A DNA stretch of 64,000 nt from positions 1-64,000 of the forward strand of contig NZ_AOLQ01000038.1 in the NCBI RefSeq assembly GCF_000337775.1, given 5' to 3'. Made by a program: the position numbers and the translations under genes. This document shows, piece after piece, positions 43,344 through 46,101 of this stretch; positions within the stretch are counted from its first letter, which is position 1; every line of letters starts with the position of its first letter. The stretch is from Haloarcula vallismortis ATCC 29715. Lineage in GTDB: Archaea > Halobacteriota > Halobacteria > Halobacteriales > Haloarculaceae. The notes under the pieces were generated by a model. The model was given only the letters and a program-made list of their open reading frames with translations. It was not told where the DNA came from and did no database searches.

Positions 43344-43964
43344 ATGGACGAGGAAACGGGCGACCCGAATGGGGACGGCGACTCTGGCGACCGTCCCTCG
43401 CTGGCCGACCAGCGCGGCGTCGAATCGGTGTATCAGCCCGCTGAGGACTCGGACCTGCTGGCCCGAACAGCCAGCGAGCGAGTCGACGGAGGCGATACCG
43501 TGCTCGACGTGGGGACGGGCTCTGGCTACGTCGCCGCGACGCTCGCTGAGGCCGGCGCGCGGGCGGTCGGAGTCGACGTGAGCCCGCTCGCGTGTCGAGA
43601 GGCCGCCGACAACGGCGTCCCGGTCGTTCGCGGCGATCTTGTCGAGCCGTTCCGGGCAGATGCCTTCGACCTCGTTGCGTTCAATCCGCCGTATTTGCCG
43701 ACCCCGCCCGAACAGGAGTGGGACGACTGGATGGAACACGCGCTGTCGGGGGGCGAAGACGGCCGCCGGCTCGTCGACCCGTTTCTCGAAACCGTCGAGC
43801 GCGTGTTGGCCCCGGGCGGCGAGGCACTCATGCTCGTCAGCAGTCTCACGGACCCGGAGGCAGTGCGAGCGTATGCGAGCGAACACGGACTGGCGAGCGA
43901 GCAGCTTGCGAGTGAAAACCACCCGTACGAAGTGCTCGTCGTCCTGCGGTTCTATCGAGAGTGA
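43344..43964 (+). CDS. HemK2/MTQ2-type protein-glutamine methyltransferase
   Basis: 206 residues. Motif I is VLDVGTGSGYVAATLAEAG and the substrate motif is FNPPYLPTPP (NPPY). The VYQPAEDSDLL segment at the start is typical of archaeal and eukaryotic HemK2. It probably methylates the Gln of the GGQ loop in release factor aRF1. It ends the rpl21e-rpoF-DUF655-ksgA block, so the neighbourhood supports a translation role. The N-terminus has an extra acidic haloarchaeal extension. Confidence 0.9.
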   Translation: MDEETGDPNGDGDSGDRPSLADQRGVESVYQPAEDSDLLARTASERVDGGDTVLDVGTGSGYVAATLAEAGARAVGVDVSPLACREAADNGVPVVRGDLVEPFRADAFDLVAFNPPYLPTPPEQEWDDWMEHALSGGEDGRRLVDPFLETVERVLAPGGEALMLVSSLTDPEAVRAYASEHGLASEQLASENHPYEVLVVLRFYRE

Positions 43965-43987
43965 TTACTGCAGAGCATTTTATTGAA

Positions 43988-44016
43988 TAGGAAATATTAA
44001 AGCCCGTCATTTCCTA
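43988..44016. promoter_or_regulatory. 8-bp inverted repeat framing the metE TATA box
   Basis: TAGGAAAT (43988-43995) and ATTTCCTA (44009-44016) are exact inverted copies separated by 13 bp that hold the end of the TATA element (AAATATTAA, 43992-44000). Arm centres are 21 bp apart, two helix turns, so a dimer could bind one face. The ATG follows at 44027. It is a strong candidate operator for the methionine synthase genes. Confidence 0.6.
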
Positions 44017-44026
44017 CCCAACAGCA

Positions 44027-45025
44027 ATGACACAGGTAATCGCCACGACCCCTGGGCTCTTTCCGCTTCCGGACTGGGCCAAGGACGAACTGGCAGATCT
44101 GAAGGGCCATCAGAAGACTGACCTCATCTCGGGCGACGAGTCCGGCGAGGTCGTCGCGGCCTACGACAAAGCCCGCGAAGAAGTCATCTCCGTCCAGCAA
44201 GACGCCGGGCTCGACCGCATTGTCGAGGGCCAGCTCCGCTGGGACGACATGCTCGCGCATCCACTTGCGGTCCACGACAGCGTGGAGACGAAAGGTATCG
44301 TCCGCTACTACGACAACAACAACTTCTATCGAGAGCCGGTCGTGCAAGGTGACCTCAGTGCTGACGGCGGCGACGTGGCCGCTGACCTCGGTGCTGCTGC
44401 CGACCACGTCGATTCCGGCCTGCAGGCAGTCCTCCCCGGGCCGTACTCGCTTGCGGACCTCGCTACGGACGAGCACTACGGCGACGACGCCGCGTTCCTC
44501 GATGCTATCGCCGACTTCCTCGTTGAGGAAGTGAACGCCTTCCCCGACGTGGAGACGCTGTTCCTGCTTGAGCCATCGCTGGTCGAGAACGCGCCGGCCG
44601 ACGGCGAGGACGAACGCGCCGCCGCGGCAATCGATGCCGTCGCCTCGGCCGCCGACGCCGAAGTCGTCGCCCACACCTACTGGGGGGCCATCGAGGAGAA
44701 GGCCTACGCACACCTGATGGACGCTGACGTGGATGCTATCGGCTTCGATCTCGTCGCGAACCACGACCAAACCGTTTACAACGTTCAAGAATACGGCACC
44801 AAGGACAACGTGGCGCTGGGCGTCGTCAACGGGCAGAACACGCTCGTCGAGTCGCCCGAAACGATTCGAGACCGTATCGACTGGTTCGAACAGCAGACAA
44901 ACACCGCGTACGACACGGTGTACGCGACGGCAAACACGGAAACGTTCTATCTTCCGGTGAATAAGTTCGAAGACAAACTCAAAGCGCTCGCAAACGCCGC
45001 TGATCTGGAGGCGGCGGAGGCATAA
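44027..45025 (+). CDS. MetE-type methionine synthase, N-terminal-half homologue (no zinc ligands)
   Basis: 332 residues forming one TIM barrel of the cobalamin-independent methionine synthase family (start VIATTPGLFPLPDWAK, then VVQGDL, VLPGPYSLADLA, FLLEPSLV). It aligns with the following gene. Where the catalytic barrel has HVCYGDY and SPDCGVKL, this one has HTYWGAI and TANTETFYL, so the zinc-binding Cys residues are gone. It is thus the structural partner, comparable to the N-terminal barrel of bacterial MetE, as a separate gene 2 bp upstream of the catalytic half. Confidence 0.88.
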   Translation: MTQVIATTPGLFPLPDWAKDELADLKGHQKTDLISGDESGEVVAAYDKAREEVISVQQDAGLDRIVEGQLRWDDMLAHPLAVHDSVETKGIVRYYDNNNFYREPVVQGDLSADGGDVAADLGAAADHVDSGLQAVLPGPYSLADLATDEHYGDDAAFLDAIADFLVEEVNAFPDVETLFLLEPSLVENAPADGEDERAAAAIDAVASAADAEVVAHTYWGAIEEKAYAHLMDADVDAIGFDLVANHDQTVYNVQEYGTKDNVALGVVNGQNTLVESPETIRDRIDWFEQQTNTAYDTVYATANTETFYLPVNKFEDKLKALANAADLEAAEA

Positions 45026-45027
45026 CG

Positions 45028-46101
45028 ATGACAGGACCACGAGACCAGTTCAAGCCGGCGGACCACCCGAACGACCACTTCCTGCTGACGACTGTCGTCG
45101 GCTCCTACCCCAAGCCAAAGTGGCACGACCGTGCCCGAGAGCTGTTTGAGGACGAGGACGCAGACTTCGGCGCCGAGGAGTGGGAAGAATCGAAAGACGA
45201 CGCCTCGCGGCTCATCACCCACGAGCACGAGCGCGCGGGCCTCGATGTCATCTGTGACGGCGAGATGCGCCGCAACGAGATGGTGGAATACTTCGCCCAC
45301 CGCATCGACGGCTACGAGTTCAACGGCCGCGTGAAGGTGTGGGGCCACAACTACTTCGACAAGCCAAGCGTCGCTGACGAGGTCGAGTACGGCGAGCAGT
45401 GGCTCGTCGAGGAGTTCGAGTTCACCGACGAGGTCGCCGAACGTCCGGTCAAGGTCCCCATCACGGGGCCGTACACGCTGGCGAACTGGTCGTTCAACGA
45501 AGTGTACGACAGCGAGGAGCAGCTAGCCTACGAGCTTGCAGACCTCGTCAACGAGGAGATCGAGGCGCTGGTCGAGGCCGGCGCTCGCTACATCCAGATC
45601 GACGAGCCCGCCCTCGCCACGACGCCGGACGACCACGCTATCGTCGGCGAGTGTCTGGAGCGCATCGTCGACGAGATTCCCGACGACGTGCGCCTCGGCC
45701 TGCACGTGTGTTACGGCGACTACTCGCGCATCTACCCTGAGATTCTGGACTACCCGGTCCACGAGTACGACCTGGAGCTCGCCAACGGCGACTACGACCA
45801 GCTCGACGTGTTCAAAGAGCACGAGTTCACGAAGGACTTCGCCATGGGCGTTCTGGACGCCCACACCGCGGAGGTCGAGTCAGTCGAGGAAATCAAGGAG
45901 AACATCAAGAAGGGACTGGAAGTCGTACCCCCAGAGCGACTCACCGTTTCGCCGGACTGTGGCGTGAAGCTCCTGCCCCGCGAGGTCGCCCGCGGCAAGA
46001 TGGAGAACATGGTGCAGGCCGCCCGCGAAATCGAGGAAGAACTGGACGCCGGCGAAATTGACGTTGTCGCGAGTGGTGCGGAAGCGCACGCCGACGATTA
46101 G
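45028..46101 (+). CDS. methionine synthase, catalytic (zinc) subunit
   Basis: 357 residues. It carries the core MetE barrel: TTVVGSYPKPKWH, VITGPYTLANWSF-like VPITGPYTLANWSF, IQIDEPALATTP, and the zinc ligands in HVCYGDY (His and Cys) and SPDCGVKLLPREVA (Cys). It transfers a methyl group to homocysteine; the donor in archaea may be a methylated pterin or corrinoid protein rather than free methyl-THF-polyglutamate. Two bases separate it from the N-terminal-half gene, so both are co-transcribed. A hairpin follows the stop. Confidence 0.93.
   Translation: MTGPRDQFKPADHPNDHFLLTTVVGSYPKPKWHDRARELFEDEDADFGAEEWEESKDDASRLITHEHERAGLDVICDGEMRRNEMVEYFAHRIDGYEFNGRVKVWGHNYFDKPSVADEVEYGEQWLVEEFEFTDEVAERPVKVPITGPYTLANWSFNEVYDSEEQLAYELADLVNEEIEALVEAGARYIQIDEPALATTPDDHAIVGECLERIVDEIPDDVRLGLHVCYGDYSRIYPEILDYPVHEYDLELANGDYDQLDVFKEHEFTKDFAMGVLDAHTAEVESVEEIKENIKKGLEVVPPERLTVSPDCGVKLLPREVARGKMENMVQAAREIEEELDAGEIDVVASGAEAHADD

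Follow-up and report, generated by a model that had tools for sequence, protein, structure and literature searches.

The window analyzed here, a stretch of 64,000 nucleotides from Haloarcula vallismortis ATCC 29715, carries on its forward strand an operon whose two genes together specify a split cobalamin-independent methionine synthase, the only methionine synthase of this organism. Its first gene encodes the N-terminal, folate-binding subunit MetE-N (44027..45025; Pfam Meth_synt_1, 53.6 bits) and its second gene the C-terminal, catalytic subunit MetE-C (45028..46101; Pfam Meth_synt_2, 201 bits). Upstream, on the same strand, lies a HemK-like methyltransferase gene (43344..43964), identified by Pfam methyltransferase matches and delimited by the end of its ORF. 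Split MetE has been described for Halobacteria and is the sole methionine synthase in most of those surveyed (PMC7857596). Some genomes of the Haloarcula group contain a second MetE-N, approximately 55% identical and followed by a C-terminal partner of its own (G016:C3:347362-348315 and G022:C7:90145-91104). In the open-access literature searched, we found nothing on the control of split MetE and no description of this promoter or of an archaeal methionine regulator.

A preliminary description of the window had drawn attention to a perfect inverted repeat, TAGGAAAT-N13-ATTTCCTA, in front of the operon and had read its 8-bp arms as the site of a dimeric repressor of methionine synthesis. The repeat was confirmed base by base at 43988..44016 (TAGGAAATATTAAAGCCCGTCATTTCCTA, no strand assigned) and ends 10 bases 5' of the MetE-N ATG at 44027. 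With up to three mismatches allowed, it matches once in the window (0.02 matches expected in shuffles) and once in the 3.92-Mb genome. When the 62-bp intergenic region was shuffled 20,000 times with its dinucleotides preserved, perfect 8-bp inverted repeats with a spacer of 3-25 bp arose in 168 shuffles (about 0.8%), and the whole window holds 68 of them, GC-rich for the most part. The repeat is thus uncommon, although taken alone it is not compelling. Among known RNA elements, Rfam returned just a chance miRNA match inside a coding region, and a SAM or SAH riboswitch was rejected for want of any match of that kind. Neither a bacterial promoter nor a bacterial terminator was found.

Conservation of the metE promoter

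Phylogenetic footprinting was based on 110 metE loci, collected as MetE-N relatives from named genomes (80 loci) and from the genus, which yielded 99 distinct promoters; because the aligned genomes are related, these sequence counts do not represent independent events. The alignment was anchored on the TATA core and is gapless from -50 to +25. The conserved unit is a module of approximately 55 bp, in which two boxes, I and II, flank and overlap the BRE and TATA elements.

Box I (ATTACTGCAGAGCAT; 43964..43978, forward strand), the upstream copy of a 15-bp site, is supported by the 99 distinct metE promoters and recurs as the same box in 73 promoters of a small transcription factor gene, here called TF-A and treated below. 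It lies at a fixed distance upstream of the TATA core, with the consensus ATWACYnnnRnGYAT (ATWACY-N5-GYAT) in a block that extends to ATWACYnnnRnGYATT. It forms a weak dyad centered on 43971, and its first base is the last base of the stop codon of the upstream methyltransferase gene. A BRE-like stretch (GAATAGGAAA; 43985..43994, forward strand) follows 5' of the TATA element and makes up most of the left arm of the inverted repeat; its region is conserved in relatives as G.AT.G.AAA, and haloarchaeal BREs have been described as A-rich, with CGAAA (PMC4983044). The TATA element ATATTAAA (43994..44001, forward strand) was identified by the footprint inside a conserved AAATATTAA core. AAATATTA, which includes the alignment anchor, is present in 99 of 99 promoters, 26-30 bp 5' of the ATG, and the next A is nearly invariant; other genera have the TATA variants AAGTATTAT and AATTATTAT.

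Box II (ATTAAAGCCCGTCAT; 43996..44010, forward strand), the downstream copy, emerged from the footprint, from a pattern search, from the TF-A promoters and from the ranking of direct repeats. Its consensus is ATTAA-N6-KYAT and its center, 44003, is 32 bp from that of box I. The left half overlaps the TATA element; the right half, KYAT, falls in the interval from TATA to the start. Among the downstream columns, +16/+17 is AT without exception, and C12, G13, C20, T22 and A23 are nearly invariant; across the 99 distinct promoters, the same near-invariance extends to AAATATTAA, to the AT within KYAT and to the greater part of box I. A conserved TA (44015..44016, forward strand), which ends the right arm of the inverted repeat, occupies the expected -10 position in the metE promoters, and its A is strongly conserved in the TF-A promoters; the haloarchaeal -10 element has been described as WW (PMC4983044). 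The TATA core at 26-30 bp before the ATG, the A-rich BRE and the TA near -10 thus amount to a predicted haloarchaeal basal promoter, its elements spaced as usual ahead of a putative leaderless start.

With at most one mismatch allowed, the box II pattern AAATATTAANNNNCGNYATNNCNTA matched in 266 of 391 Halobacteria genomes and, with few exceptions, a single time in each; the reversed control pattern gave a handful of matches overall. Of 40 genomes that had no match or came from poorly matching genera, 38 have metE, and nearly all promoters read among them showed diverged versions of both boxes. In Natrinema mahii, there is one metE operon on each of two contigs (L028, L053), and the two-box promoter is complete in both.

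The preliminary description had named lack of conservation in related species as an outcome that would refute its reading, and the footprint separated the element from its symmetry. Relatives keep the element over the metE TATA but not its palindromic form. All eight arm pairs match in 8 of the 99 distinct metE promoters, the fractions of matching pairs from the outside inward being 0.91, 0.51, 0.54, 0.36, 0.44, 0.48, 1.0 and 1.0, so that, for five of the eight, a match is seen in no more than about half of the promoters. The Natrialbaceae version of the element, TGGAAAATATTAAGCGTCGGTATAGCCTA, is strongly conserved and asymmetric, and the arms are not kept as a palindrome in the TF-A promoters. 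Judged from these alignments, the mirror symmetry is mostly luck. The reported repeat would be a composite of the BRE on the left and of an operator half-site plus the -10 TA on the right, symmetric here and in few other species; its arm centers are 21 bp apart, and its axis, 44002, lies by chance within 1 bp of the box II axis.

A different regularity appeared when column profiles of all non-overlapping 15-base windows were compared. As a direct repeat, the window pair -29/+3 (offset 32) ranked 1 of 1275 in the metE set and, independently, again 1 of 1275 in the TF-A set. Boxes I and II are thus the same 15-bp site, repeated directly at an offset of exactly 32 bp, or three turns. In TF-A promoters, box I takes the form of a dyad, ATWnCY-nnn-RGnWAT, which is perfect in some of them, for example ATAACCTGAGGTTAT in L289. 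Box II is weakly symmetric, as would be expected if its left half must double as TATA. On this comparative evidence, the predicted operator is the direct repeat that is seen through comparison, not the visible palindrome.

Genome searches

A sequence profile of the 58-column metE promoter module (R1) was searched in 11 whole genomes. The metE promoter was the top match in all 11, and in 8 of them there was a second match, spanning box I through TATA, which proved to be the TF-A promoter in each case in which the gene that follows was read. The reciprocal profile (R2), built from 59 TF-A promoters, returned in seven genomes TF-A first, metE second and nothing else at E<=10, the E-values of both profiles being rough. 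Where a protein search found no TF-A orthologue, R2 had metE as its top or near-top match; it gave no match in G032 and G038, which have neither MetE-N nor a TF-A orthologue. The two profiles and the direct-repeat ranking thus place the same predicted operator at a target and at the regulator's own promoter, as would be expected of an autoregulated factor.

The module defines a two-promoter regulon. No further copies of it were found at other methionine or SAM genes of the genome, and it therefore lacks the breadth of an ordinary methionine regulon. A genome search for the arms of the inverted repeat, which the preliminary description had proposed as a check at such genes, revealed no further copies there either; with no second copy in the genome, the arms were rejected as a regulon motif.

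Several other candidates were set aside. The long box II consensus, used as a regulon motif, matched metE plus one poor match, and a box I-TATA pattern with a wrong spacer missed metE and chanced upon TF-A promoters. A replacement regulator in genomes without TF-A was not recovered, as R2 there gave metE alone apart from weak unrelated matches. Threonine synthase was rejected as a general third target, since the boxes are present in G051 and G236 and absent from the best-matching genes of 24 other genomes. Both belong to divergent lineages with small genomes and no TF-A; their best R2 match precedes a gene for a threonine-synthase-like PLP enzyme (L335, G051:C2, around 69644-69690; L337, G236:C1, around 67840-67886) and carries both boxes (ATAACCTAAGATTAT ... 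ATTATAACTGTGCAT).

TF-A and its paralogues

The TF-A gene (in H. vallismortis at contig C69:301865-302137, minus strand) encodes a protein of about 90 amino acids, outlined as MSASDTQ...LPPSAKLVAKVLEY...LTQSQLAEETLLPPRTVRYALSRLE...SRFSFADARKRIYTL. Orthologue-level matches, taken at a threshold of E about 1e-26, are present in all but about two dozen of the 391 genomes. The 79 TF-A promoters read have the anatomy of the metE promoter, with both boxes at the same spacing, and the TF-A genes read carry the boxes almost without exception. Box I reads ATTYCYnnnRGTAAT or ATTnCYnnnGnGCAT and is followed by AARTATTAT and then by ATTATYAnnCTGTAT; the ATG mostly lies 27-30 bases after the TATA core.

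TF-A scores 32.5 bits against Pfam HTH_24 (PF13412; cut-off 21.9), which places it among winged-helix factors. It falls short of the Pfam cut-offs for MarR_2 (25.9 versus 27), MarR (18.4 versus 24.6) and TrmB (14.2 versus 25.6), and no conserved Cys was found among 43 proteins. An AlphaFold model, based on 43 locus-derived sequences, predicts a helix-helix-helix-strand-strand winged helix with pLDDT >90 over the domain. Residues 2-17 of the 91 are disordered in the model and the chain ends after the wing. The model is closest to the DNA-binding part of MarR-type proteins (Foldseek E about 2e-4); the helical dimerization and ligand-pocket region of MarR is absent from it, and it has no ligand-binding domain. 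Because the sole other genomic copy of the module lies before its gene, TF-A is likely the regulator of metE, and we rank it first among the candidates for a factor that controls both methionine synthase and its own gene, these two promoters forming its predicted regulon.

Two families of TF-A paralogues are widespread in Halobacteria, B (LSQGQLAEESLLPDRTVRYALNRLEE..SRYSF) and C (LTQKGIVEESMLSARTVRYALERLE), as at L263 and G000:C4:43208-43417. Each family has its own, different promoter type; the boxes are absent from the B and C promoters read, and neither family was found by R1 or R2. The recognition regions of TF-A, B and C are very similar, with near-identical recognition helices (RTVRYAL). 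For HVO_0772, a 90-aa protein of the NP_1176A family in H. volcanii, deletion slows growth in synthetic medium and no binding motif was found (PMC12852389). It resembles TF-A in size and fold and very probably belongs to the same set of paralogues, but differs in its conserved residues (five Ser and one Thr) and its length, on which grounds it is probably paralogue B rather than TF-A.

TF-A and metE mostly occur together, with exceptions both ways, and we therefore discarded co-occurrence as a proof of their relation. The TF-A-less genomes read in detail (genera g34, g36 and g79; G119; G247) have paralogues only, and their metE promoters keep both boxes, very well so in g36 and g79 (42-50 bits). 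TF-A is thus not the sole reason why the boxes persist; in these lineages, a paralogue with a near-identical recognition helix may have taken over, or another factor may bind. Conversely, metE of G218 (L151) is without both boxes and the TATA element, and TF-A and its boxes remain. Both genomes of genus g80 (L347 = G363, L348 = G327) have no MetE-N and keep TF-A with two boxes, so that TF-A may serve a different role or act on a different target in this genus.

Discussion

The module of the metE promoter is conserved throughout the class Halobacteria, and the metE and TF-A promoters share one architecture. We think it probable that the module is a two-site operator, most likely bound by TF-A and likely serving repression, which is the best explanation of its structure and distribution. 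With sites 32 bp apart, that is, three helical turns, two TF-A dimers would bind one side of the helix and surround the basal promoter, one on box I just upstream of the BRE and the other on box II, over the 3' part of TATA toward the start site. The dimers on box II would block TBP/TFB or the polymerase at metE and at the TF-A gene itself, box I would add cooperative binding, and repression would be relieved when methionine is short. The dimeric regulator of metE proposed in the preliminary description thus gains from the structure of the motif and from the sole partner gene, although the bases assigned to its operator are replaced by boxes I and II.

Two dimers bracketing BRE and TATA would be consistent with cooperative binding that represses by occlusion; on its own, box I could also permit activation. 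A TF-A dimer on box I, or the boxes themselves, could thus recruit TFB and raise the expression of metE and TF-A, with box II tuning or limiting it. Box I abuts the BRE and is well conserved. In haloarchaea, OxsR acts as an activator where its site lies 5' of BRE/TATA and as a repressor where it lies 3' (PMC9426492), and an activating role has been ascribed to CsmR sites that precede the BRE (PMC13286277). We nevertheless regard activation as rather unlikely, because box II covers TATA and the spacer between TATA and start, the classical position of a repressor, and its right half is strongly conserved. Moreover, positive autoregulation at one shared pair of sites is less usual.

Another reading that we likewise regard as rather unlikely is that a paralogue of family B or C, or a different protein, binds the boxes and that TF-A is a co-target instead of the regulator. 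The persistence of the boxes in lineages without TF-A and the similar recognition regions of the three families would agree with this. However, no boxes were found at the B and C promoters read, which both profiles missed, whereas the TF-A genes read nearly always have them, and self-targeting is typical of a cognate regulator.

Many haloarchaea have several TFBs, and the module might be an extended basal promoter alone (BRE, TATA and -10, possibly for a special TFB/TBP pair), with no dedicated regulator. The left arm of the inverted repeat indeed corresponds to BRE/TATA and its terminal TA to a -10 element (PMC4983044). No known haloarchaeal basal element covers box I or the KYAT half-site, however, and the top rank of the 32-bp direct repeat in two independent promoter sets, together with the sharing of the module by two promoters per genome, makes a purely basal role quite improbable. 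It is extremely unlikely that the arms themselves are the half-sites of a dimeric repressor: they are perfect here and in a few relatives, lie 21 bp apart from center to center and have their axis near that of box II, but their middle pairs match in fractions of just 0.36-0.54, and they are neither palindromic in TF-A promoters nor found a second time in the genome.

We are evenly divided on the wider reading that Halobacteria possess a dedicated, hitherto undescribed winged-helix regulator, minimal and lacking a ligand domain, for no more than two promoters, those of their sole methionine synthase operon and of its own gene; an ancestral link to the homoserine branch would be suggested by the two divergent lineages in which a threonine-synthase-like gene has these boxes. 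If this is true, methionine synthesis in archaea would have its first known regulator in TF-A. The analysis yields a named candidate protein together with its exact predicted sites and a regulon of two promoters; as the organisms are amenable to genetics, the control of split MetE becomes directly testable. It also illustrates that a visually perfect palindrome can mislead, the direct-repeat operator being revealed by comparison alone.

Among known systems, the regulons of MetJ, MetR and SahR comprise many met genes, and these regulators have ligand-binding domains; their sites, and the fold of MetJ, are unlike those of TF-A. The hallmark of the MetJ regulon is tandem AGACGTCT boxes together with a ribbon-helix-helix repressor; no such boxes occur in 43964-44026, and the candidate here is a predicted winged helix. 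What they would share with TF-A is the transcriptional control of methionine synthase genes, exerted there in Proteobacteria and at different sites (PMC4239095). The winged-helix domain of the MarR repressors HsmR, MepR and FabT aligns with TF-A, but these proteins have extra helices for the dimer and the ligand pocket, which are missing from TF-A. OxsR (HVO_2970) of Haloferax volcanii is a single winged-helix regulator of the TrmB type that senses oxidants via Cys24 (PMC9426492). With its TrmB score and without a redox cysteine, TF-A does not belong to this type: OxsR has Cys24, a CG-rich motif and many targets, whereas TF-A has no conserved Cys and, as predicted, an AT-rich, paired site and two target promoters. 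Both are small stand-alone winged-helix proteins of haloarchaea, and the sites of OxsR, like those predicted for TF-A, are placed relative to BRE and TATA.
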